From positions 1 through 63,475 of the forward strand of contig JAKBFV010000005.1 of the NCBI GenBank assembly GCA_021833365.1: DNA of 63,475 nt, read 5' to 3'. Made by a program: the position numbers and the translations under genes. Every line of letters begins with the position of its first letter. Within the stretch, counting starts at the first letter, position 1. Shown here piece after piece: positions 31,318 to 58,026 of the stretch. The notes below the pieces were generated by a model. That model worked only from the letters and a program-made list of their open reading frames with translations. It had not been told where the DNA came from and did not search any database. The DNA comes from Pseudomonadota bacterium. GTDB taxonomy: Bacteria > Pseudomonadota > Gammaproteobacteria > Pseudomonadales > Moraxellaceae.

Positions 31318-32847
31318 TCATGCCTTCAATCCGAGGCGACGCGCCAGCTTGTGCAGATTGCTCGCATCGAGACCGAGGCTGCGCGCCGCTGCTGCCCAGT
31401 TGCCTGCGCTCTGCTGCAAGGTCATCTGCACATACTGGCGCTGAAAGTTGACGACGGCGATGGCGAGCGGCGGGCGTGTCGACGGCATGGGTGGCGCCGC
31501 CGACGACACGGCCTGACGCGGGTGAGCGGCAGCGGTGTCGAGATCGAGGAGATCGGCGGCCAGGGTGACGATGTCGGTGCGCACGGCACCGCGGCTGAGC
31601 GCCTTGATCGCGGCACGACTGATCACATGCTCGAGTTCGCGCACGTTGCCAGGCCAGTGATAGTCGAGCAACAGGGCCTCGGCCTCAAGCGACAGACGCA
31701 GGCTGCGCAAACCGAGACGGGCGCGATTGAGTTCGAGAAAACGCCCGGCGAGCAGGAGAATATCATGACCGCGCTGACGCAAGGGCGGAATGGGCACGGG
31801 ATACACGGACAGGCGGTGATAAAGATCGGCGCGAAAGCTGCCCTCGCGCACACTCTGCTGCAGATGGCGATTGGTGGCGGCGACGATACGCACATCGACC
31901 TTGCGTGGATGGTCTTCCCCCAAGCGCTGGATTTCGCCGTTTTGCAGAGTGCGCAGGAGCTTGGCCTGAATGCTCAACGGCAATTCCCCGACCTCATCGA
32001 GAAACAGGGTGCCGCCATCGGCGGCCTCGAAACGGCCGGCGCGATCCTGGCTGGCACCGGAAAAAGCACCTTTGACGTGACCGAACAGCTCACTCTCGGC
32101 CAGCGATTCCGGCAGCGCCGCACAGTTGACGTGCACGAGAGGCCGTGAGCGCGCTGAATGGCGATGCAGATGCCGCGCAAATAATTCCTTGCCGACACCG
32201 GTCTCACCGAGCAGCAGCACAGGCAGATCCGAATCCGCCACCACCTTGAGTTCTTCGATCAGATGGGTGATCTCCGGACTCTGCCCGAGGATGTCGTCCT
32301 CGCCATCGATCGTCTCGGTACCGGGCTCTTGTGTCCATCGATGCAGACTTAGGCTGCGCACCTCTTCCTCGAGACGGGTCATGCGCAGGGCAGCCTCCAC
32401 CAGCAGGAGATGCTCGCCGAGTATGCGCTGCATGTCGGCATCGAAACGGGCGCCGGCGAGAGCGTCGAGGGTCAGTACGCCCCAGGGCCGTCCTTCGACG
32501 AAGAGGCTGACGCCCATGCAATCGTGCACTGGCAGGGGCTCTCCCGCCTGGTCGGCGAGCAAACCGTCATAAGGATCGGGCAGTTCGCTGCCCGGCATGA
32601 AGCGTACCGGTTCGCGCTGCTGCAAAATACGCACGAAACGCGGATGCAAGGCGACACGGAAACGTCGGCCGAGCGCCTCATGCACCAGACCATCGACCGC
32701 CACCGGCACCAGGACGTCTTCCTGCAAGCACAACAAGGCCACCGCGTCACACTGAAAATACATGCGCAGGACGTGCACCAGACGCTGCAAGCGCACCGCC
32801 GAAGGTAGCGCGGTCACGAGGTCGGCGAGCAGACTGGCATCGATCAT
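31318..32847 (-). CDS. norR: NO-responsive sigma-54 activator NorR
   Basis: A 509-residue bacterial enhancer-binding protein: N-terminal GAF domain (about residues 20-170) that binds NO at a non-heme iron, AAA+ domain (Walker A GETGVGKE, DE-box [14 protein letters not shown]) and a C-terminal Fis-type HTH (NWAAAARSLGLDASNLHKLA). The sigma-54 contact loop reads GAFSGA instead of GAFTGA. The ATG at 32847 directly abuts the first of three NorR boxes. The nor operon it should activate is divergent. Confidence 0.95.
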   Translation of the reverse strand: MIDASLLADLVTALPSAVRLQRLVHVLRMYFQCDAVALLCLQEDVLVPVAVDGLVHEALGRRFRVALHPRFVRILQQREPVRFMPGSELPDPYDGLLADQAGEPLPVHDCMGVSLFVEGRPWGVLTLDALAGARFDADMQRILGEHLLLVEAALRMTRLEEEVRSLSLHRWTQEPGTETIDGEDDILGQSPEITHLIEELKVVADSDLPVLLLGETGVGKELFARHLHRHSARSRPLVHVNCAALPESLAESELFGHVKGAFSGASQDRAGRFEAADGGTLFLDEVGELPLSIQAKLLRTLQNGEIQRLGEDHPRKVDVRIVAATNRHLQQSVREGSFRADLYHRLSVYPVPIPPLRQRGHDILLLAGRFLELNRARLGLRSLRLSLEAEALLLDYHWPGNVRELEHVISRAAIKALSRGAVRTDIVTLAADLLDLDTAAAHPRQAVSSAAPPMPSTRPPLAIAVVNFQRQYVQMTLQQSAGNWAAAARSLGLDASNLHKLARRLGLKA

Positions 32848-32905
32848 GGTCAATAAAACCCTTTCTTGGTCGAAAGAACCCTAACCCTCCAGGGTCAAAA
32901 AAACC
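32848..32905 (+). promoter_or_regulatory. Three NorR binding sites
   Basis: Three 13-base boxes fit GT-N7-AC: GGTCAATAAAACC (32848-32860), GGTCGAAAGAACC (32868-32880) and GGTCAAAAAAACC (32893-32905). E. coli norVW also has three NorR sites upstream of its sigma-54 promoter. The last box is about 40 bases before the -24 element. Confidence 0.85.
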
Positions 32906-32945
32906 ATCTATTTTTTATGATCATGAAAAATAATGAATTTTTTTA

Positions 32946-32961
32946 TGGCACAAGCCTTGCT
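32946..32961 (+). promoter_or_regulatory. Sigma-54 promoter of the ric-nor operon
   Basis: TGGCACAAGCCTTGCT is a perfect match to the -24/-12 consensus TGGCAC-N5-TTGCW. It lies 35 bases before the ric start codon and downstream of the NorR boxes. Confidence 0.93.
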
Positions 32962-32996
32962 TAGAGAGCTTCGTCTTTCATCCACAGGAGCCTCTC

Positions 32997-33668
32997 ATGA
33001 CCTTACTCGACCAGTCCCTCGGTCAGATCGCCCGTACCTTGCCGGGCGCCACCGGCATTTTTCACACGCATAAGCTCGATTTCTGCTGTGGCGGTGACAT
33101 CAGCCTGCGCGACGCCGCCGCTCGCAAGGGCCTCGACGCCGAAGTCCTCGCCCAGGAACTCAGCGATCTGAACAGCGACGCCAACACTGCCGCGTCGCTG
33201 CCGGATGCGGCGAGCATGATCGAACACATCCTGCAGCGCTATCACGCCCAGCACCGCCAGCAGCTCCCCGAACTCATCCGCCTGGCGCAGCGCGTCGAAC
33301 GTGTCCACGCCCGCCACCCGGACTGCCCGAGCGGCCTGGCGCAGCAGCTCATCAATATGCTGCAGGAACTGGAGAGCCATATGCTGAAAGAGGAACAGGT
33401 CCTCTTTCCCTGGCTACTGCGCGCCGGAGCGCCCTGGCCGGAAGGCCCCATCGCCATGATGCGTTTCGAGCATGATCAGCATGGCGAGGCGCTGGCCGAA
33501 GTGATCCGTCTCACCGACGACATCCAGCCACCCGACGACGCCTGCAACACCTGGACAGCCTTGTATACCGGCCTCGAGGCCTTTCGCCGCGACCTGATGC
33601 AGCACATCCATCTCGAAAACAACGTTCTGTTCAAGGGCCTGCTCCATGAACCGGCGGATCTCGTCTAG
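32997..33668 (+). CDS. Iron-sulfur cluster repair di-iron protein (RIC/YtfE/DnrN/NorA)
   Basis: A 223-residue protein with an N-terminal ScdA_N-type segment (FHTHKLDFCCGGDISLRDAA) and a hemerythrin-like C-terminal di-iron domain. Ligand candidates are in RYHAQHRQQ, LESHMLKEEQVLFPWL, RFEHDQHGE and MQHIHLENNVLF. The family repairs Fe-S clusters damaged by NO. As the first gene after the NorR-driven promoter it couples repair to NO removal. Confidence 0.93.
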   Translation: MTLLDQSLGQIARTLPGATGIFHTHKLDFCCGGDISLRDAAARKGLDAEVLAQELSDLNSDANTAASLPDAASMIEHILQRYHAQHRQQLPELIRLAQRVERVHARHPDCPSGLAQQLINMLQELESHMLKEEQVLFPWLLRAGAPWPEGPIAMMRFEHDQHGEALAEVIRLTDDIQPPDDACNTWTALYTGLEAFRRDLMQHIHLENNVLFKGLLHEPADLV

Positions 33669-33677
33669 GAGGACATC

Positions 33678-35541
<1,864 letters not shown>

Positions 35542-35591
35542 CGCCCACCCAGGAGGGGAATCCTCCCCTCCTCCCTGACCGGAGACATGCC

Positions 35592-36188
35592 GTGTTGTGG
35601 CCCTTACACACCATCGTGAATGAGCAGGATGAGCGGGTGAACTTGCCGGGTGATCTCGCCATCTGGTTTTTTATCGCCGCCGAGCTCCTCGTCTTTGCCA
35701 CCTTGTTTCTCTGCTTTGCTCTGGCCCGCAACGACCATGCTCTCCTGTTCGCGCAAGCCGAAAAGAGCTTGCAACGTCTGCCAGCACTGCTCGAGACCCT
35801 CCTCCTGATCGCGAGCAGTTATGCCGTCGTCTGCGCCATCCGCGCTTTGCACGCCGGCCAGCCGCGCCGTGGCAGCCGAGATTTCGGCGCGGCCCTTGTC
35901 CTCGGTGGCATGTTTTGTGGACTCAAAGTCCTCGAACTGCGGCGTGATTTTGCTCTCGGCATGAGTCTGTCGCACGACCTGTTCGACATGTTCTATCTCA
36001 GCCTGATCGTCTTTCATTTCATGCATGTGCTCATGGGCATGGTCATGCTCAGCGTCGTCACCCTGCGCAGTCGTCGCGGTGCTTACGACGCTAGGAATAT
36101 GAGCGCTGCCGAGTCGGTCGCCGCCTTCTGGCATATGGTCGATCTGCTCTGGATCTTTCTTTTTGTTCTCATCTACGTCCTCACCTGA
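35592..36188 (+). CDS. norE: NorE, cytochrome c oxidase subunit III-like protein
   Basis: A 198-residue membrane protein with about five helices and the subunit III pattern (LPGDLAIWFFIAAELLVFA near the start, FHFMHVLMGM, AAFWHMVDLLWIFLF at the end). NorE supports assembly or full activity of NorCB. The GTG at 35592 has GGAGA upstream. Confidence 0.92.
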   Translation: MLWPLHTIVNEQDERVNLPGDLAIWFFIAAELLVFATLFLCFALARNDHALLFAQAEKSLQRLPALLETLLLIASSYAVVCAIRALHAGQPRRGSRDFGAALVLGGMFCGLKVLELRRDFALGMSLSHDLFDMFYLSLIVFHFMHVLMGMVMLSVVTLRSRRGAYDARNMSAAESVAAFWHMVDLLWIFLFVLIYVLT

Positions 36189-36201
36189 AGCGGAGTCCGC
36201 C

Positions 36202-36465
36202 ATGCCCGCCCTCTCGCCACGCCTCGCCGTGATCGTTCTGATCAGCCTGACACTGCTCAGCTATCGCCTGCACGACGATCTGCACGGTGCCGTCCTCGCC
36301 ACTTGCGCCTTGCTGCTCAGCTTCTGCAAGGGTCAGCTCATCGTCGACGACTTCATCGGCCTGCGCCGTGTACGCGGTCCATGGCGACTTCTGTTCAGCA
36401 CCTACCTAGGTGTACTGACCACCACCCTCATCCTCATCAGCCAGAAGACCGGAGTTCATCCATGA
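36202..36465 (+). CDS. norF: NorF-like small membrane protein
   Basis: An 87-residue protein with about three membrane helices, resembling the cytochrome c oxidase subunit IV/NorF family. It lies between norE and norQ; its stop overlaps norQ (ATGA). It probably assists NorCB biogenesis. Confidence 0.82.
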   Translation: MPALSPRLAVIVLISLTLLSYRLHDDLHGAVLATCALLLSFCKGQLIVDDFIGLRRVRGPWRLLFSTYLGVLTTTLILISQKTGVHP

Positions 36466-37259
36466 ATGCCGCAAGCCATGATTTGCCGCCCCCTTACCTC
36501 GCGGTCGGCGATGAGATCGATCTCTTCGAAAAGGCTTGGCGCAGCCGCCTGCCCGTCCTCATCAAAGGCCCGACCGGCTGCGGCAAGACGCGTTTTGTCG
36601 AGCATATGGCGGCGCGCCTGGGGCGTCCTCTCTTCACCATCTCCTGTCATGACGACCTCAGTGCCACCGATCTCGTCGGTCGCCATCTCATCGCTGCCAG
36701 CGGAACTTTCTGGCAGGATGGCCCTCTGACCAGCGCCGTGCGTGCCGGCGGCATCTGCTATCTCGACGAGATCGTCGAAGCGCGCAAGGATACCAGCGTC
36801 GTTCTGCACGCCTTGTCAGACGATCGGCGTCTCTTGCCGATCGAACGTACGGGTGAACAATTGCAGGCGCCGCCCGAATTCATGCTCGTCGTCTCCTACA
36901 ATCCCGGCTATCAGCACCTGCTCAAAGGACTCAAACCGAGCACGCGACAACGCTTCGTCTCTCTGCGCTTCGACCATCCCGACCTCGCCCAGGAAGAGGC
37001 CATCGTCAGCGCTGAGACCGGTCTCGCAGGTGATATGGCGCGCCGCCTCGCCCTGCTCGCCGAAGCGCTGCGACAGAGCGCCAGCGATACCCTCGACGAG
37101 GTTCCAGGAACCCGGCTGATCGTCGGTGCAGGCCGACTGATCGCCGCCGGCTGCGCTCCCCGTCAAGCTTGTCGCGCCGGCATCATCGAGTGTCTGAGCG
37201 ATGACAACGAGCAGATCGCAGCCTTGATGCGTGTCGTCGACATGGTCATGGGCTCCTGA
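36462..37259 (+). CDS. norQ: NorQ/CbbQ MoxR-type AAA ATPase
   Basis: A 265-residue AAA+ ATPase: Walker A GPTGCGKT (residues 36-43), Walker B ICYLDEIVEA, sensor motif VVSYNPGYQ and second-region RQRFVSLRF. With NorD it is thought to insert the non-heme iron into NorB. Coupled to norF by a 4-base overlap. Confidence 0.95.
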   Translation: MNAASHDLPPPYLAVGDEIDLFEKAWRSRLPVLIKGPTGCGKTRFVEHMAARLGRPLFTISCHDDLSATDLVGRHLIAASGTFWQDGPLTSAVRAGGICYLDEIVEARKDTSVVLHALSDDRRLLPIERTGEQLQAPPEFMLVVSYNPGYQHLLKGLKPSTRQRFVSLRFDHPDLAQEEAIVSAETGLAGDMARRLALLAEALRQSASDTLDEVPGTRLIVGAGRLIAAGCAPRQACRAGIIECLSDDNEQIAALMRVVDMVMGS

Positions 37260-37276
37260 CGCTGACGGAGAGAGCG

Positions 37277-39091
37277 ATGGAAGAATGGGTGGGTCAACTC
37301 TGGCATCGCTGCCGGCAAAGCCTGCGCCGTGGCGGCCATGCGCACGCGGCGATGACACTGGCTGAGCAGCAGAAGGAACTCAGCTTACTCTTTCGCGCCT
37401 GCGCCGGCGATCCCGGCTTGCGTCTGGCCGGCGCCCCCGTCCTGGCACACGCCAGCCCCGATCTCGGCTGGCGCCATGGTGATCCGCACCATGCTGAACT
37501 CGCTTTCAGTGATGAACAGGCTCTGCATCTGCCGAGCCGCATCGACCTCTATCCGCAGCGACGACACAACCGTGAGCTTTATGACTGGCTGACCGCGCTG
37601 TGCGCCGTCTTGCCGGCACATAGGCGTGCTGACTGGGCACAGGCGCAGCAAAGCGCCACCTTGTTTCTGCTGACGCGCTATGCCGGTCTGGCGCAATCCT
37701 ATGAGCGCCTGGTCGCTGCCGAATTACAGCGCCGTCCACCATTGACCGCCCTGCCCGCAGCAGCGCAGGCGCGCGAGCGTGCTCTGCGTCAGGCCTTGCT
37801 GCAGCCAGGCTCCGTCGACCACCTCCCCGACTCACCGTTCGGCCATCTGCCCCTGCCCCTGTGGACGGCGCCCGTGCTGCCGCGCCCACCCAGTCCGGCG
37901 ACCCTGCCCGAACAGGATGATGCGCGCGCCGGTCAGCGTCAAAGCGGTGATGACAAGCGCCGCGCGAGCCGCCGCGAAGATGCCCCGCGACGCCATGCCG
38001 GCCTGCTCATCTTTCGCCCTGAATCCATCTTCAGCTGGAGTGAATACGCCGCCGTCGAACATGAAGTGCAAGACAATGACGATGAGGATCTCGCTGCCGC
38101 CGCCGATGATCTCGACGTGATCAGCCTGAGCCGTGACGGCCGCAACATCGCCAAGGCCGTGCGCATGCAGCTCGATGATGCCGTCAGCACGGCGACTCTG
38201 ACCGCGCCCGGCACGGCGGTGGTGAGCGTCCCGGAATGGCACTATCGGCAACACCGTCTACTTCCCCAACACTGTCAGATCAGCACCAGGATCGGCGCCA
38301 TGCATGGCACGGGGCTCATGCCGGAACACCTGCGTGGCCCACAAAAACGCCTGCAGGGGCAGCTGGCGCGCTGGCTGCCCGAACGTCAACGTCTGCGCGA
38401 CCGCCTCGATGGCGACATCGATATCGACGCTTGCATCCTGCACCGCAGCCGCGGCGAACGTGAGCGCATCGATTGTCATCAGCAGTGGCAACGACGCCAG
38501 CGTGACATCGCCTGCCTGATGCTGGTCGATCATTCATTGTCGACTGAGGCCAGCCTCACCGATCACCTCAGCGTCATCGACGTCATCCGCGACAGCCTGC
38601 TGCTCTTTGCGGAATCCCTGGACAGCTTGCAGGACTGCTTTGCTCTCTATGGCTTTTGTTCACGCCAGCGCCAGGATGTGCGCATCAGCGAACTCAAATC
38701 CTTCGCTCAGCACTACGATCAGGACGTGCGCCGCCGCATCGCTGGCCTGCAGCCCACCCTCTATACGCGCATGGGCGCCGCCTTGCGCCACGCCAGCGAC
38801 CTTTTGGCTCAACAGCAGCAGCGCCAGCGCCTGCTCCTGCTGATCACCGACGGCAAACCCAACGACTGCGATGGCTATGAAGGCCGTTATGGCTGTGAAG
38901 ACACCCGTCATGCCGTACTCGCGGCGCGCCAGCGCGGTCTGCATCCTTTTTGCATCACCATCGACCAGGAGGCCGGTTCCTACCTGCCCCACATCTTCGG
39001 CGCCCAGGGTTACTTCCTGCTCCGCCATGCCGCCGAATTGCCGCAGCGCCTACCCTTGCTCTATGCCCACATGACCGCCCCCTTCAGGTGA
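37277..39091 (+). CDS. norD: NorD, von Willebrand factor A activator
   Basis: A 604-residue protein with a C-terminal VWA domain (about residues 410-600). The MIDAS motif DHSLS is at LMLVDHSLSTEA, and LLLITDGKPNDCDGYEGRYG is typical of NorD/CbbO partners of NorQ. The middle has an acidic low-complexity stretch (DNDDEDLAAAADDLD). It ends the nor operon and overlaps a convergent acyl-CoA dehydrogenase gene by 8 bases. Confidence 0.94.
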   Translation: MEEWVGQLWHRCRQSLRRGGHAHAAMTLAEQQKELSLLFRACAGDPGLRLAGAPVLAHASPDLGWRHGDPHHAELAFSDEQALHLPSRIDLYPQRRHNRELYDWLTALCAVLPAHRRADWAQAQQSATLFLLTRYAGLAQSYERLVAAELQRRPPLTALPAAAQARERALRQALLQPGSVDHLPDSPFGHLPLPLWTAPVLPRPPSPATLPEQDDARAGQRQSGDDKRRASRREDAPRRHAGLLIFRPESIFSWSEYAAVEHEVQDNDDEDLAAAADDLDVISLSRDGRNIAKAVRMQLDDAVSTATLTAPGTAVVSVPEWHYRQHRLLPQHCQISTRIGAMHGTGLMPEHLRGPQKRLQGQLARWLPERQRLRDRLDGDIDIDACILHRSRGERERIDCHQQWQRRQRDIACLMLVDHSLSTEASLTDHLSVIDVIRDSLLLFAESLDSLQDCFALYGFCSRQRQDVRISELKSFAQHYDQDVRRRIAGLQPTLYTRMGAALRHASDLLAQQQQRQRLLLLITDGKPNDCDGYEGRYGCEDTRHAVLAARQRGLHPFCITIDQEAGSYLPHIFGAQGYFLLRHAAELPQRLPLLYAHMTAPFR

Positions 39092-42525: not shown

Positions 42526-43170
42526 GTGAAGCGAGCTGCGCGCACCCCGAGCCGTGAGGAGAGCAAACTGCTCACCCGTCACCGGCTGATGCAGGCGACT
42601 TTGCAACTGCTCATGGCACAAGGGCATGAAGGCCTGACCACCGGCCGCATCGCCCAGCTGGCCGGCGTCGCGCAGGCGACCTTCTACGTCCACTTCCGCG
42701 ACATCGACGACCTGCTCGCCACCCTGGCACGCGATGTCGTCGAACGCCTGCAACCCGTGCTGACGCGCCTGCGTCTGCAGTTCGATGAATCGCAGCACTT
42801 CGCCGCGGCGCTGCGCCAGAGCTACCGCATCCCTCTCGAGACCATCGTCGCGCACGCTGATCTGCTGCGCCTGTTCATGACCGAGTACTACCGCCCCAAC
42901 TCGCCGCTCGGGAGCAGCGCACGGGCGTTGCTCGCGGCTTTGAGCCAGCATCTTTATCAGGACCTCCTGACTCTGGTGCTGACCCGTGACATCGCCGCCG
43001 ATCATCTCGAGCTGGCGGCAGAGACGGTGGTGGCGCTCACTTTGCAGGTGGGGCTCGGCCTCGCCGAACACCCTGAACGCAAGATCGAACAAGCGCTCGA
43101 CCTGCTCTGCGCCTTGACCATGGGGGCGCTGTTCACCGCCGCTCCGCCACAAACAGCGACATCCGGGTAA
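42526..43170 (+). CDS. TetR-family transcriptional regulator
   Basis: A 214-residue regulator with an N-terminal HTH (LTTGRIAQLAGVAQATFYVHF, about residues 37-57) and a helical ligand domain. The GTG at 42526 has AGGAG six bases upstream. It is divergent from the ADC-like/acyl-CoA dehydrogenase operon and probably represses it until an acyl-CoA-type effector binds. Its stop codon overlaps a half-site upstream of the CrcZ-like RNA. Confidence 0.9.
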   Translation: MKRAARTPSREESKLLTRHRLMQATLQLLMAQGHEGLTTGRIAQLAGVAQATFYVHFRDIDDLLATLARDVVERLQPVLTRLRLQFDESQHFAAALRQSYRIPLETIVAHADLLRLFMTEYYRPNSPLGSSARALLAALSQHLYQDLLTLVLTRDIAADHLELAAETVVALTLQVGLGLAEHPERKIEQALDLLCALTMGALFTAAPPQTATSG

Positions 43171-43203
43171 CAACATCGAAACATTGGCGAAGCCGATTGT
43201 TAC
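43167..43203 (+). promoter_or_regulatory. Candidate CbrB upstream activating half-sites
   Basis: GTAACA (43167-43172) and TGTTAC (43198-43203) form a perfect inverted pair 25 bases apart, about 113-149 bases upstream of the predicted start of the CrcZ-like RNA. This is a usual enhancer distance for a sigma-54 activator. The half-sites equal those I recall for CbrB in Pseudomonas, but the order and spacing differ. Confidence 0.45.
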
Positions 43204-43289
43204 GAGAGCACCCGCACATCACCGCGTACAAATTTCCATCAAATCATCAACCCATTGAAAATTAAATGGAATTTTCTTTTTTAAGATAT

Positions 43290-43305
43290 TGGCACGATAT
43301 CTGCT
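43290..43305 (+). promoter_or_regulatory. Sigma-54 promoter of the CrcZ-like RNA
   Basis: TGGCACGATATCTGCT matches TGGCAC-N5-TTGCW at all but one position (C for the first T of TTGC), with exact GG to GC spacing. A T-rich tract precedes it. No protein gene starts within 500 bases; transcription should begin near 43316. Confidence 0.8.
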
Positions 43306-43315
43306 TTATATCTGG

Positions 43316-43703
43316 CGTGGTCGCCGCACCCCAAAACAAGAACAAGCGGCACCACCGCGAAAACAACAACAAGAGCGAGCGGTAGCGGCAAAAATACAAT
43401 AACAAGCTGCGACAAAACGCAGCGACCAGAAGCGGCATCGCGACGACAGCTAGAACAATAAAAATGGCTGCACCGAAACGATTCGACATAAAAAGAAAAC
43501 ATAAGAAAAATAGGGAATCTGCATGGGGCTTAGGCCCCTTCGCCCTGCGTGGTGGAGGGCAGAGCGAAGGGCCACTGAGACGAAACACGGACACGAGCTG
43601 CGCAACAACCATAACAAAAGCAGCCGGTCACGACAAAATAACGATAACGACACAAGCATGGTAAGACTTCAGCGCAAGCGGGATGACCTCCCGCTGTTTT
43701 CTT
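43316..43703 (+). ncRNA. crcZ: CrcZ-like small RNA, decoy of Hfq/Crc
   Basis: About 388 nt between a sigma-54 promoter and an intrinsic terminator, with an A-rich, U-poor top strand and no convincing reading frame. Perfect AANAANAA motifs occur at 43333-43345, 43360-43372, 43398-43405, 43454-43461 and 43490-43510, with weaker ones near 43604 and 43635. Several sit in loops of predicted hairpins: GCCGC/GCGGC (43323-43350), ACCGC/GCGGT (43354-43383), GCGGC/GCTGC (43385-43410), CAGC/GCTG (43447-43470) and GCTGC/GCAGC (43597-43624). In Pseudomonas, CrcZ (about 400 nt, CbrB and sigma-54 dependent, next to pcnB) uses such motifs to sequester Hfq and relieve catabolite repression. Position next to pcnB and the presence of cbrAB support this reading. 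Identity is inferred from architecture, not from alignment. Confidence 0.78.
43677..43703 (+). terminator. Intrinsic terminator of the CrcZ-like RNA
   Basis: A perfect 7-bp stem AGCGGGA/TCCCGCT with a 5-base loop, followed by GTTTTCTT. It lies about 110 bases before the pcnB start and ends the A-rich RNA. Confidence 0.85.
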
Positions 43704-43814
43704 GTTCCACTCCGTTGCAACGGTATAGATCGCCGACCGCCGGCATCGATGGCACCCGCCCGACATTGCCGCTATAATCGCCACTTCGTCTTTGTCAAGA
43801 ATGCGGCCCAAGGC

Positions 43815-45161
43815 ATGCTCAAACGTTTCATCGATCGCTTGCGCGGACGCCGCGCCGCCGACTCACCCAGCGCCAAGAAAGCACACATCATCGCGCGTGG
43901 GCGACATGGCATCGCACGTCAGCGCATCAGTAGCGCCGCCGTCAAGGTGCTGGAAGGGCTACAGGGAAAATCCTATCAAGCCTATCTCGTCGGCGGTGGC
44001 GTGCGCGATCTGTTGCTCGGCCTCACGCCCAAGGACTTCGACGTCGCCACCAGCGCCACACCGGAGCAGGTGCGTGCCCTGTTTCGTAACGCCCGCATCA
44101 TCGGCCGACGTTTCCGCCTCGTGCATGTGCTGTTCGGGCGCGAGACCATCGAAGTAGCGACCTTTCGTGCGCATCACGAACAGGATGAGCAGCGCACCAC
44201 GACCAATGCCCAGGGCATGATCGTGCACGACAACGTCTACGGTCAGATGGAGGAAGACGCTGAACGCCGTGACTTCACCGTCAACGCCCTCTACTACGAC
44301 GTCGCCGATGAAACCATCCACGACTATGTCGGTGGGGTGAACGACCTCGAAGCCCGCCTTTTGCGCCTGATCGGCCATCCCGAGACACGCTACCGCGAAG
44401 ATCCGGTACGCATGCTGCGCGCCATCCGCTTCGCCGCCAAACTCGACTTCCGTATCGAGGCGCACACCGCCGCCCCCCTGCCACACCTCGCCTCTCTGCT
44501 CACCGGGGTGTCACCGCATCGCCTCGCTGACGAGGTCGACAAGCTGCTCGGCAGCGGTCATGCCGAAACCGTGCTCGCCCTGCTCGAGGAATACGGCCTC
44601 CTGCATTACCTGTTTCCCGACCTGCATCTCAACGACGCCAGCCGCCGCCTGATCCTGGCGACGGCGCAGAGCACGGATGCGCGGCTGCGCATCGGCAAGG
44701 GCATCAATCCGGCCTTCTTCTACGCCGCTTTGCTTTGGCAGCCGGTGCAGGTGCGCAGCCGCCAGCTACACGACCACGGCACGCCCCTCGTTCCCGCCCT
44801 GCAGCAGGCGATACAGCAGGTCATCCAGCAACAGATGACGCGCACCGCTCTCACCCGCGTGCTGGCGACGACCTTGCGCGAAATCTGGGAGATGCAGACA
44901 CGCCTGCAGAACCCCGACATCCGGCGCGTCGATGAGATGTTGCAGTCGCCGCGTTTTCGTGCCGGCTTCGATTTCCTCGTCCTGCGCGAGCAGAGCGGCG
45001 AGCCCACCGGCCAGATGGGGGATTGGTGGCAACACTATCAGGATGCCGACAACGAGGGCCGTCAGGCCCTGCAGGCGGAGGTGCTCGCCGCACGCCGGCA
45101 GCCGGATGGCGCGGCGCCGAAACGCCGGCGGCGGCCGCCGCGCAAACGCAAACCGGCATGA
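43815..45161 (+). CDS. pcnB: Poly(A) polymerase I
   Basis: A 448-residue class II nucleotidyltransferase that adds poly(A) to RNA 3' ends and promotes decay. The catalytic head motif is YLVGGGVRDLLLGLTPKDFDVAT, the RRDFTVNALYYD segment follows, and the C-terminus is strongly basic (RRRPPRKRKPA). The ATG at 43815 was chosen to match the family N-terminus (MLKRFIDRLRG); in-frame ATGs upstream lie near the terminator. The stop overlaps folK (ATGA). Confidence 0.93.
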   Translation: MLKRFIDRLRGRRAADSPSAKKAHIIARGRHGIARQRISSAAVKVLEGLQGKSYQAYLVGGGVRDLLLGLTPKDFDVATSATPEQVRALFRNARIIGRRFRLVHVLFGRETIEVATFRAHHEQDEQRTTTNAQGMIVHDNVYGQMEEDAERRDFTVNALYYDVADETIHDYVGGVNDLEARLLRLIGHPETRYREDPVRMLRAIRFAAKLDFRIEAHTAAPLPHLASLLTGVSPHRLADEVDKLLGSGHAETVLALLEEYGLLHYLFPDLHLNDASRRLILATAQSTDARLRIGKGINPAFFYAALLWQPVQVRSRQLHDHGTPLVPALQQAIQQVIQQQMTRTALTRVLATTLREIWEMQTRLQNPDIRRVDEMLQSPRFRAGFDFLVLREQSGEPTGQMGDWWQHYQDADNEGRQALQAEVLAARRQPDGAAPKRRRRPPRKRKPA

Positions 45162-53583: not shown

Positions 53584-53760
53584 ATGTATATCGATCGTCT
53601 GGTCTTGCTCATTCTGGTCGGTCTCTACCTGCTATCGCCAGCCTTTCTGGCTTGGTGGAGTCAGGGCGCCTCGGCCTGGTATCGTCCCTATCTGCTCTGG
53701 GTATTGCTCATTTTCATCGGCTATTGGGCCAGTTCCGGGCAGGATCACGATGATCTTTAG
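53584..53760 (+). CDS. Small membrane protein upstream of cbrA (CbrX-like)
   Basis: A 58-residue protein beginning MYIDRLVLLILVGLYLLSPA, with two hydrophobic segments (about residues 5-24 and 36-52) and a charged tail DHDDL. Its end overlaps the cbrA start by 11 bases, so cbrA translation is probably coupled to it. A small gene also lies between gluQ and cbrA in Pseudomonas (CbrX, from memory); equivalence is inferred from position. Confidence 0.72.
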   Translation: MYIDRLVLLILVGLYLLSPAFLAWWSQGASAWYRPYLLWVLLIFIGYWASSGQDHDDL

Positions 53761-56701
53761 TCTGTCACACGTGCTGCTCATGGGCGTGAGCTATCTGCTC
53801 CTGCTCTTCATCGTCGCCTATGTCAGCGATTCCGGCATCATCCCGGTACGCCTGTTGCGCCATCCCGTCGTCTACGTCCTGTCTCTCGGCGTCTATGTCT
53901 CGGCCTGGGCCATTTTCGGGGCGGTCGGCTTCGCTCACGACATGGGCTATGAATTCCTCGCTTACTACATCGGCATCTCCGGCGCCTTCCTGCTCGCCCC
54001 CATCCTGCTTGGACCGGTGCTGCGTCTGGCGCGCACCTACCATCTCGGCTCACTCGCCGATCTTTTCGCCTACCGCTACCGCAGCCAGGCCGTCGGTGCC
54101 CTCACCTCGCTGGCGATGACGGTGAGCGTCATGGCCCTGCTCGCCATGCAGATTCAGGCGGTGGCGGACAGCATCGGCATCATGACGCATCAGGACCAGC
54201 CCAATACCCTGGCCTTGTGGTTCTGCATCATCGTCACCGTCTTCACTTTGCTCTTCGGTACCCGCCACATCACCCCCCGCGAAAAACACGAAGGTCTGGT
54301 GGTGGCGATCGCCCTCGAGTCCCTGCTCAAACTCGTCGCCTTTCTCAGCCTCGGCGCCTTCGCTTATTTCCGTGTCCTCGGCGGCCCGCACGGCCTCAAG
54401 TCCTGGCTCGAGGCGAATCCGCAGAATCTGCAGATGCTCTATACCCCGCTGCATGAAGGCTCCTGGCACAGCTTGATGCTGGCCTTCTTTTTTTCTGCTG
54501 TTCTGATGCCCTTCATGTATCAGATGACCTTCACCGAGAACCAGAACCCCGGTCACCTCAAACGCGCCAGCTGGGGATTCCCCCTCTATCTGCTGCTCAT
54601 CGCCCTACCCGTCCCGCTGATCCTGTGGGCCGGTGTCAAACTGGTCAATTACGAGATCGACCCGGAGTACTTCAGCCTCGCTGTCGCCATGGCGGCACAT
54701 ACGCCCCTGCTCGCCCTGCTGGTCTTCGTCGCCGGCCTGTCCGCCGCCAGCGGCGTCATCATCGTCACCACCTTGGCGCTGGCGTCGATGAACCTCACCC
54801 ACCTCATCCTGCCCATCTATGCGCCGCCGCAGGAAGCCAATCTCTATGACTGGCTGCTGCGCATGCGCCGCCGCCTGATCGTGGCCCTGATCATGCTCGC
54901 CTACGCCCTCTTCGTCGCTCTCGATAAGCAGCACACGCTCACCGAGATGGGCACCATCACCTTTGTCGGCACCCTGCAGTTCGCTCCCGGCCTGGTCGGT
55001 GTGCTGTTCTGGCCACGCGGCAACCGTGTCGGCCTGGTCTGGGGACTGGGCACCGGCATGGCGATCTGGTTCATCGCCCTGGTCATCCCCTTCCTGCTGC
55101 AGATCGAGCTCTTCCATTTCCGCTTCGGCAACATCGAGTTCACCGGCAATCCCGCCTACTGGCAAGACGTCGGCGTCATCGCCACCTTCGCCAACAGCGT
55201 GATCTTCACCCTCTTTTCCATCCTCGCGCCGCAGAGCGAGGCGGAGGCGCTGGCCGCTGCCAGTTGTTCCGTCGACAATCTGCGCCGACCGCAACGCTGG
55301 GAACTGGCGGCGCACAAAGCGCAGGACTTCACCGACGCACTGACGCCGCATCTCGGTCGCCTGTCGGCGGAAAGCGAAGTGCAGCAAGCCCTGCACGATC
55401 TGCACATGCCGCCACAGGAGTCACGCCCCTACGCCCTGCGCCGCCTGCGCGACCAGCTCGAATCCAACCTCTCCGGTCTGCTCGGACCGGCCATCGCCCA
55501 GGAGTTGCTCGATCAGGCCGTCCCCTACAAGATCCGCGCCGAACAGATCGCCGGCGAAGACATCCACTACACCGAATCGCGCCTCGAGGAGTACCGCAAT
55601 AAACTCTCCGGCCTCGCCGGTGAACTCGATTCCCTGCGTCGCTTTCACCGCCAGACCCTGTTCGACCTGCCGCTCGGCGTCTTTACCCTGGGTAAGGATC
55701 AGGAGATCCTGAGCTGGAATCAGGCGATGATGCAGCTCACCGGCATCACCGACCGCGACATCATCGGCGCGCACCTGAATGCCCTGCCGATACCCTGGAG
55801 CACCTTGTTCATCGGCTATATCGAGGGCGATCTGGCGCCGCGCCCACGCCACCACGTCGAGTATCAGGGGCGCCAGCTCTGGGTGAGCATGAACCGCGCC
55901 CTCATCGTCGGCGAGGATCTGGTCATGGATGACAGCCAGGTGGTGGTGGTCGAGGACGTCACTGCCTTGCACACCATGGAGGCACAACTGACGCACCGTG
56001 AGCGCCTCGTCTCCATCGGCACCTTCGCCGCCGGCGTCGCCCATGAGATCGGTAATCCGATCACCGCCATCGCCTGTCTGGCACAGAATCTGCGCGCCGA
56101 GAGCGAAGATCCCGACATCCGTGAAGCCAGCACACAGATCGTCGAGCAGACACGGCGGGTGTCGCAGACCGTGCAGTCGATGGTCGTCTTCGCGCGTGGT
56201 GGTAATACCCACGGCAGCCAGCATGAGAGCGTCCCCATCCGCGTCTGCGTCGAAGAGTCGATACGTCTGCTACAGCTGGTGCCGGGCGGCCGCGACTATC
56301 AGTTCGTCAACGAATGCGACGTCGATGCCTATGCACACGGCGATCAGCAGGAGCTCATGCAGGTCTTCGTCAATTTGCTGTCGAACGCCCGCGACGCTTC
56401 GCCCCTCGGCGGCCGCATCGTCGTACGCTGTGACGGCAATGAACACACGCTGACGATCGAAGTCGAGGATTTTGGCAGCGGCCTGTCGGCGGCCATCCGC
56501 CCCCATCTTTTCGAGCCTTTCGCCACCACCAAGGACATCGGCAAGGGCACCGGCCTCGGTCTCGCTCTGGTGCATGGCATCATCGGCGCCCATCATGGCA
56601 AAATCCAGATGATCGATAAGGCTGACTACGATCAAGGTCAGGGAGTCATCGCCCGCATTACCCTGCCGGGTCAGATCGCACAGCAGTCGGGAGCGTCTTA
56701 A
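53750..56701 (+). CDS. cbrA: Sensor histidine kinase CbrA with transporter domain
   Basis: A 983-residue protein combining an SSS-type transporter domain of about 13 helices (residues 1-500), a STAC-like linker, a PAS domain (about 630-740), a HisKA domain with phospho-accepting H765 in GVAHEIGNP, and a HATPase domain ([28 protein letters not shown]). CbrA senses carbon/nitrogen state and phosphorylates CbrB, allowing use of poorer carbon sources. The cbrB start overlaps its stop by one base. Confidence 0.94.
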
Positions 56702-58026
56702 TGGCCAACATCCTCATCGTCGAAGACGAAAGCATCATCCGTACCGCCTTGCGCCGTCTGCTCGAGCGCCACGAGCATCAGGTGCAGGAGGCCGGCTCGG
56801 TGAGTGAAGCGCGCAGCGTCGATGCGAGCCAGCTCGACCTGGTGATCTCCGATGTGCGCTTGCCCGGCGAGGAAGGCACCGAGCTGATCGCCCTCATGCG
56901 TCCGGTTCCCGTCCTGATCATGACCTCCTACGGCAGCGTCAAATCAGCGGTCGACGCGATGAAAGATGGCGCCGTCGACTACATCACCAAGCCCTTCGAT
57001 CACGAGGAGATGGTGCAGACGGTCGAACGCATCCTGCAGCAGCGTCAGCAGGGGGAACGTGGCCGCGCCAGCAGCGCTGAACGCACGCCGGCACAGATGG
57101 TCGGACAATGCCCGGCCATGCTCGAGGTCTTTCTGCGTATCCGTAAAGTCGCACCGATCCCCTCGACGGTGCTCATCCTCGGCGAATCGGGCACTGGCAA
57201 GGAACTGGTGGCGCGCGCTCTGCACGAGCAGTCGACGCGCGCGCGCGGCCCGCTGATCTCGGTCAACTGCGCTGCCATTCCGGAGAACCTCATCGAGTCG
57301 GAGCTGTTCGGCTATGAGAAGGGCGCCTTCACCGGCGCTCAGGCCAGCCGCAAAGGCCTGGTCGAGGCCGCCGACGGCGGTACGCTCTTCCTCGATGAGA
57401 TCGGTGAACTGCCGCTCGAGGCGCAGGCGCGTCTGCTGCGCCTGCTGCAGGAGAAAGAGGTACGCCGCATCGGTGCCACGCAGGCGCGCCAGATCGACGT
57501 GCGCATGATCGCTGCCACCCATCGCCCGCTCAAACAACTAGCCAGCGAAGGGCGCTTCCGTGAAGATCTATTCTATCGCCTCAATGTCTTCGAGATCCGC
57601 CTGCCGCCGTTGCGCGAACGCGGTGACGACATCCTGCTGCTCGCCGATCGCCTGCTCGAGCGCAATTGCCAAAAATTATCGGTGACAGCGATGCGCTTCT
57701 CGGCGTCAGCGCGCCAGGCCATCCTCCACCATGACTGGCCAGGCAATGTGCGTGAGCTGGAGAACGCCATCGAGCGCGCGATCATCCTCTGTGACAATGG
57801 CGATATCAGCAGCGAGCACCTCGGCCTCGGAGACGGCATGGAGGAGGCCTTGGAAGCCGTGGATCTGCCTCAATCGACCTCGCTCGAGGACTATTTCACG
57901 CAGTTCGTGCGCAAGCATCAGGAGCAGATGTCGGAGACCGAACTGGCCCAAAAACTCGGCATCAGCCGCAAGACCTTGTGGGAACGCCGCCAGCGTTTGA
58001 ACCTGCCACGCAAACGCGATGGCTGA
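56701..58026 (+). CDS. cbrB: Sigma-54 response regulator CbrB
   Basis: A 441-residue NtrC-family activator: receiver domain with phospho-Asp D51 (VISDVRLPG), AAA+ domain ([28 protein letters not shown]) and a C-terminal Fis-type HTH ([19 protein letters not shown]). In Pseudomonas it activates crcZ and amino-acid catabolic operons. The CrcZ-like RNA at 43.3 kb, with a sigma-54 promoter, is its most likely local target. Confidence 0.95.

Follow-up and report, generated by a model that had tools for sequence, protein, structure and literature searches.

The question raised by this locus is whether a stretch of about 390 nucleotides between a TetR-like gene and pcnB, in a member of the Moraxellaceae, encodes a regulatory RNA akin to CrcZ of Pseudomonas, as a first-pass annotation made from the letters alone had proposed. 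The CrcZ RNA of P. aeruginosa is described, in the part of the paper available, as 407 nt long, with six ARN stretches, and as titrating Hfq via its distal face (PMC4063720). The two-component system CbrAB is called exclusive to Pseudomonas and Azotobacter in excerpts of two papers (PMC8871633; PMC6296734), and a third, likewise seen in excerpt, records marine cbrAB transcripts in a metatranscriptome (PMC5073097). No description of a CbrAB-linked RNA of the CrcZ kind outside the Pseudomonadaceae was found in the sections of the open-licence PMC literature covered, and, as far as our searches show, a CrcZ-type decoy RNA is new for the Moraxellaceae lineage. Within the window, by which we mean the whole stretch of 63,475 nucleotides analysed, our best explanation, to which we give a probability of roughly 0.88, is that this interval specifies a divergent CrcZ orthologue outside the Pseudomonadaceae: a non-coding decoy RNA of about 390 nt that would be controlled by CbrAB and would titrate Hfq. 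The features on which the argument draws are collected in Table 1.

Table 1. Features of the predicted RNA and its neighbourhood (positions in the window)
Feature	Position	Strand	Remarks
GTAACA, CbrB-type subsite (reverse form)	43167..43172		exact match; in 3/3 genomes of genus
TGTTAC, CbrB-type subsite (forward form)	43198..43203		exact match; 91 nt before sigma-54 site
IHF-like site CATCAACCCATTG	43245..43257		one mismatch to WATCARNNNNTTR, which we take to be the IHF consensus
Sigma-54 promoter TTGGCACGATATCTGCT	43289..43305	+	12/13 consensus positions
CrcZ-like decoy RNA (predicted)	43316..43707	+	about 390 nt (392); start deduced by promoter spacing, end by terminator
Hfq distal-face (ARN / AANAANAA) cluster 1	43335..43345	+	
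ARN / AANAANAA cluster 2	43362..43372	+	
AANAANAA cluster 3	43398..43405	+	
ARN / AANAANAA cluster 4	43454..43464	+	
AANAANAA cluster 5	43490..43497	+	
ARN / AANAANAA cluster 6	43503..43510	+	
Conserved 13-bp core hairpin, then GGCCACTGAGA	43536..43571	+	common to genera g1 and g4
Intrinsic terminator, 7-bp stem and T-rich tail	43677..43707	+	stem 43677-43695, then GTTTTCTTGT
Sigma-70-like promoter, 10/12	43749..43778	+	after terminator; probably serves pcnB
pcnB, polynucleotide adenylyltransferase	43815..45161	+	TIGR01942 501 bits, cut-off 306
CbrA orthologue, 983 aa	53750..56701	+	Pfam HisKA, HATPase; N-terminal half without Pfam match
CbrB orthologue, 441 aa	56701..58026	+	receiver, sigma-54 AAA+, HTH

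The initial description of the unit listed a near-perfect sigma-54 promoter, five exact AANAANAA motifs lying mainly in hairpin loops, a 7-bp intrinsic terminator with a T run and no convincing gene, and all of it was borne out apart from the number of motifs. Among sites with fixed GG and GC, the promoter is the sole one in the window, on either strand, to match the consensus at 12 of 13 positions. The motifs are present but had been undercounted, as positions 43316-43707 hold nine overlapping starts in six clusters, and nine of the ten plus-strand occurrences in the entire window fall inside the RNA. Dinucleotide shuffles contained 1.44 on average and reached nine or more in 1 of 2000 cases, and no other 392-nt stretch held more than two (both strands, 12,540 placements in 10-nt steps). 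Five stretches of the Hfq distal-face type, (ARN)n with n of at least 4, also lie within the RNA. The predicted minimum free energy of the strand is -116.7 kcal/mol; shuffled versions average -95.3 (z = -4.0), and none of 100 folds as stably. The exposure of the motifs holds as a prediction: AANAANAA positions have a mean unpaired probability of 0.91, compared with 0.79 at other A's and 0.46 at the remaining positions. All 19 of the 19 RNAs analysed gave this ranking; they are those of the 19 family loci whose promoter at pcnB can be recognised, minus L026 and plus L063 from a Moraxellaceae metagenome-assembled genome (MAG). Terminator-like sites in the region number three (1.4 in shuffles), the one at 43677 being alone on the plus strand, and six of its seven stem pairs are conserved across all three genomes of the genus.

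The core hairpin covaries. In five sequences from genera g1 and g4, 98.5% of its cells are paired and three pairs have changed on both sides, and sliding the pairing by one to three columns lowers it to 40-46%. Shuffles matched its covariation score in 4 of 500 cases, its count of pairs with two-sided changes in 29 of 500 and its pair-type count in 353 of 500. The covariation term is -0.65 for the three genomes of the window's own genus; the consensus fold of genus g13 plus L063 has two-sided changes at 8 of 40 predicted pairs and an unfavourable term of +1.36. Judged from these alignments, what is conserved in the RNA is the promoter, the exposed A-rich clusters and the terminator, rather than one fold. 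A coding gene within the unit was rejected on the genus alignment, some of whose indels would shift the reading frame, their lengths not being divisible by three. An antisense gene was rejected as well, the 116-aa open reading frame on that strand having a partly similar 111-aa counterpart in genome G005 and none of at least 40 aa in G021.

Upstream of the promoter lie exact copies of both CbrB subsites, which are published, in the portion of the paper available, as TGTTAC and GTAACA (PMC6296734). In the 19 family loci whose promoter at pcnB is recognisable, the interval 60-200 nt upstream holds 40 exact hexamers of this type, where the rest of the loci would predict 0.61, and none of the 19 lacks one; in L007, L019, L021 and L023, copies of TGTTAC stand in tandem at intervals of about 21 bp. 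Between hexamers and promoter, 17 of the 19 have an IHF-like site, counted on both strands and allowing one mismatch, a weak result given that the region is AT-rich and that the expected number, 0.05 per 85 bp, was derived from the window as a whole. The exact hexamer-promoter pattern TGTTAC-N68-98-TGGCAYG-N5-TGC has a single match in the 2.57-Mb genome to which the window belongs, at the 43198 locus. The TetR-like gene ends in a stop codon that lies inside the GTAACA at 43167-43172, which places this putative activator site partly within coding sequence.

The RNA lies directly upstream of pcnB, as had been claimed (the pcnB start at 43815 was chosen within an open frame of 43683-45161), and pcnB is followed by folK, panB, panC, panD and an acetate-CoA ligase gene, the names folK, panC and panD coming from the open reading frame list with no family search behind them. 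CbrAB, merely assumed in the first-pass annotation, is encoded in the same window, at 53750-58026. Aligned with the CrcZ-linked proteins of the Pseudomonas-like genome G179, its CbrA shows 50% identity over 981 positions and its CbrB 60% over 473; against the window CbrB, the CbrB of G179 reaches 545 bits, and the highest-scoring other sigma-54 activators of the window's own genome reach 303. The reference locus in G179 has the order cbrA-cbrB-crcZ-pcnB, and because its CrcZ scores 334 bits to the Rfam model we take the genome to be Pseudomonas. The C-terminal HTH of CbrB is much alike among the orthologues compared, least so in G007, and this likeness fits use of the same DNA site. In all three genomes of the genus cbrAB lies 9-10 kb downstream of the RNA, and in L063 directly upstream. 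A search with the Pfam SSF domain (PF00474) matched neither the window CbrA nor anything in the three genomes of its genus; absence of CbrA, read from that null result, was dropped, as the sigma-54 activators of the window revealed CbrAB. An SLC5-type membrane domain joined to a histidine kinase is a mark of the CbrAB system; the N-terminal half of this CbrA (53750-55700) escapes PF00474 despite the 50% identity of the whole protein to the G179 CbrA, and domain searches would miss a CbrA of this kind.

Elsewhere in the window, a GAF and sigma-54 activator gene (31321-32880, minus strand) adjoins an 11/13 sigma-54 site at 32945 (plus strand), and COX3-like, NorQ-like AAA and VWA genes lie nearby (35286-39091, plus strand). 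The genes in 31321-39091 probably form a nitric oxide reductase cluster under the control of NorR, the names NorR and nor being assigned by inference.

The comparative evidence for a CrcZ-like RNA is stronger than the evidence within the sequence itself. Of 61 genomes in the family, 56 have pcnB and were retained, five with no pcnB match being left out; CbrA was searched for in 55, with G045 entering the RNA search only. A full-length CbrA match was present in 25 of the 55 (32-100% identity; that of G018 is split over two contigs), and the 30 CbrA-negative genomes had either no match or a partial one, at about 30%, in another protein some 1,180 aa long. A CrcZ-like RNA was found in 23 of the 25 CbrA-positive genomes and in none of the 30 CbrA-negative ones, for which the Fisher p of 1.6e-13 is too optimistic owing to relatedness; counted by genus, the RNA is found in 7 of 8 CbrA-positive and 0 of 7 negative genera (p = 0.0014). 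The full signature of the RNA, of which a sigma-54 site is part and whose thresholds were chosen after the data had been seen, was seen beside pcnB in 18 CbrA-positive genomes out of 25 and in 0 of the 30 others. Five more CbrA-positive genomes carry the RNA elsewhere than at pcnB, namely G012, G037 (in which the contig ends close upstream of pcnB), G004, G002 and G030; that at L193 was recognised by the signature beside cbrB and the others by the exact hexamer-promoter pattern. CbrA-positive G007 has a promoter and hexamers followed by two motifs, a weak RNA, and in CbrA-positive G018 no RNA was found. The exact pattern, which was applied to the 30 CbrA-negative genomes as well, matches 21 of 57 genomes, against 3 of 57 for the reversed control: 17 of the 25 CbrA-positive genomes and 4 of 31 other family genomes, with none in G179. 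The matches in CbrA-negative G053, G026, G022 and G032 are each followed by at most one motif, and one in CbrA-positive G040 (L294) has no motifs.

Among relatives, further or relocated copies are seen at L200:15993 (G021), on the reverse strand of L198 at 4433 and 5002 (G003), and at L277 (G019), L290 (G037), L193 and L292 (G012), L291 (G040), L271 (G004) and L070:8640. Several stand directly after cbrB, and promoter, motifs and hexamers are present, except that L200 has no exact hexamer. In genus g3, cbrAB is present and no RNA was found at pcnB or cbrB. Its member G002 holds five CrcZ-like RNA copies on four contigs (L278, L293, L295, L296, L297), and in every copy the first 450 nt from the promoter contain 15-23 AANAANAA sites. 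A second member, G030, holds one RNA (L279), with about 12 tandem AAAAAAC units, that is cut by the contig end.

The association extends beyond the family. A scan by PcnB alignment gave a list of the best 80 loci, from organisms with names, and among these 80 matches the signature was present in 31 of 34 loci with cbrB and in 1 of 46 without, that single locus carrying cbrA. Among the matches listed, loci with both CbrAB and a CrcZ-like RNA come from Halomonas, Marinobacter, Oceanospirillum, Spongiibacter and others, and the loci of Vibrio, Aeromonas and Shewanella among the 80 have neither cbrB nor the signature. The closest of the matches listed is L063, with 58% PcnB identity, whose RNA can be aligned with those of genus g13, which makes the Moraxellaceae the probable family of the window. 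As controls, 1.57 Mb of reverse strand contained no hit to the signature, and other forward-strand sequence, 1.47 Mb in all, gave two false hits: the one in L070 immediately follows cbrB, and the second is in L130. Three of the loci scored as having neither show partial features: L085 and L091 are truncated close to pcnB, and in L098 promoter and motifs are present with no exact hexamer and no cbrAB hit; the Alcanivoracaceae loci L068, L083 and L132 combine cbrB with motifs and hexamers and lack a sigma-54 site to complete the signature.

Which protein the RNA would bind is a separate matter, and here the label 'Hfq/Crc-type' that had been given to the motifs is more safely narrowed to Hfq. 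Genes for RpoN and Hfq are present in the window's own genome, which is 97.6% complete, and on alignment with E. coli we take its Hfq to have F at the Y25 position. This is a milder change than Y25D, with which PAO1 Hfq is defective in CrcZ binding according to the available part of the report (PMC4063720). A search with PF03372 found two proteins in this genome, L187 and L188, and no Crc with a degenerate active site; L188 has no PDB match, and L187 scores 262 bits to the exodeoxyribonuclease 2jc5 against 181 to the Crc structure 4jg3. L187 retains the catalytic E, D, N and D: like active AP endonucleases, it has the glutamate, GDxN and a final SDH. These residues are lost from the Crc of two Pseudomonas-like genomes and intact in 12 of 12 Crc-type rows of the window's family. 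Because the sole Crc-type protein found thus keeps its catalytic residues, Hfq is the safest candidate for the target of the decoy. A degenerate Crc, judged by eye, was found in G061 (L298), so the same type of search can detect one. In a tree, the two Pseudomonas Crc rows form a long branch within the catalytic-type rows, which suggests that the dead Crc evolved by inactivation of an AP endonuclease, the forks of the tree being weakly supported. Crc-based repression is reported, in the passages available, for A. baylyi (PMC6456745) and Acinetobacter sp. SK2 (PMC8312277).

Taken together, these features would fit the following course of events. When preferred carbon runs short, CbrA would phosphorylate CbrB, and CbrB~P would bind the GTAACA/TGTTAC sites and activate sigma-54 RNA polymerase at 43289-43305, probably with bending by IHF. 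The transcript would stop at its own terminator, ahead of the separate pcnB promoter, and its six A-rich clusters, kept accessible by their position in linkers and in the loops of hairpins, would bind the distal face of Hfq. Hfq would thereby be titrated off the A-rich ribosome-binding sites of catabolic mRNAs, and carbon catabolite repression would be relieved.

The most serious competitor, in our view an improbable one, accepts control by CbrB and sigma-54 and differs in function: the A-rich sites would recruit Hfq to a trans-acting sRNA that pairs with mRNAs, and there would be no sponge. The core hairpin and the GGCCACTGAGA that is invariant in g1 and g4 could hold a seed, and there is a precedent in sRNA99 of A. 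baumannii, which, in the part of the report available, has three A-rich motifs, occurs in Hfq chimeras and is likened to CrcZ (PMC12802169). However, among the loci compared GGCCACTGAGA is confined to the RNAs of these two genera plus one match elsewhere (L092), and what the RNAs share across genera is motif load and exposure, with no common unpaired stretch; the multiplication of A-rich repeats in genus g3, moreover, fits titration. That the sequence is instead a 5' leader or upstream attenuator of pcnB, on the same strand and immediately 5' of that gene, we consider very unlikely and have rejected, as an intrinsic terminator and a separate sigma-70-like promoter precede pcnB, and relatives have the RNA away from pcnB (L193, L198, L200, L271, L277-L279, L290-L293 and L295-L297). 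Chance motifs in A-rich intergenic sequence, a reading that an A content of 36% and the post hoc definition of the signature might invite, can hardly account for the outcome of the shuffle, strand and whole-genome controls, or for conservation reaching other families; the co-occurrence with CbrAB also speaks strongly against such a reading.

Against orthology with CrcZ, the reading we prefer, we have counted a missed Rfam threshold, the relative (L067) with no match to the Rfam model, the non-adjacent cbrAB, the failure to find a degenerate Crc, the F in Hfq, the G018 genome with no RNA, the weak RNA of G007 and the unfavourable covariation in g13 and L063. A broader scenario, offered tentatively and with the odds somewhat against it, in part owing to the Crc-based repression reported for A. 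baylyi, is that the CbrAB-driven decoy is an ancestral, order-wide switch for Hfq titration that works in this lineage with no dedicated dead Crc, that the dead Crc arose in a lineage including Pseudomonas when an AP endonuclease lost its activity, the catalytic residues being still intact in the form seen here, and that one sister genus came to hold at least five repeat-rich decoy copies. The presence of CbrAB with a CrcZ-like RNA across these genera would make carbon control by RNA titration widespread in the order, and the natural variants (no obvious Crc, a split locus, a multi-copy RNA) allow the essential parts of the system to be tested.

Comparison with known systems shows both kinship and divergence. 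The Rfam CrcZ model (RF01675), which the first-pass annotation had suggested as a check, scored 10.1 and 10.0 bits in the window, well short of its gathering threshold of 95, and under stricter filters gave no hit in the window's own genome at E<=0.001; membership in RF01675 is not assigned on this score. Applied to relatives, the model scored 58.9 bits in Marinobacter (L075) and 23.5 in the Moraxellaceae MAG (L063), both at the place of the RNA and thus linking it to CrcZ, and found no match at E<=1 in Oceanospirillum (L067). Over 194 genomes of the order, the threshold was reached in 9 and E<=0.001 in 41, with scores falling family by family. The likeness that had been drawn to CrcZ in length, promoter class and motif load is upheld: CrcZ of two Pseudomonas-like genomes is 397 and 403 nt long, with six AANAANAA clusters and five ARN stretches each, and the window RNA, at 392 nt and likewise under a sigma-54 promoter, has the same numbers of both. 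It further shares with CrcZ of Pseudomonas and Azotobacter the TGTTAC/GTAACA sites, a terminator, a downstream pcnB and CbrAB in the genome, but its primary sequence has diverged, its core hairpin is not the same, and cbrAB, directly upstream in Pseudomonas, lies here 10 kb downstream. Pseudomonas has two further Hfq-decoy RNAs, CrcY and CrcX. The CrcY promoter carries such activator sites, in the excerpt available (PMC6296734). Both RNAs follow the same logic of control and decoy, and relatives of the window genome also have second copies, whereas that genome itself has a single copy by the exact pattern, which misses 8 of 25 CbrA-positive genomes. In the sponge RNAs RsmY/RsmZ and CsrB the motif is GGA. 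These differ from the window RNA in the protein bound (CsrA/RsmA) and in the activator, and the analogy, drawn in the part of the CrcZ report available, lies in the titration of an RNA-binding translational repressor (PMC4063720).
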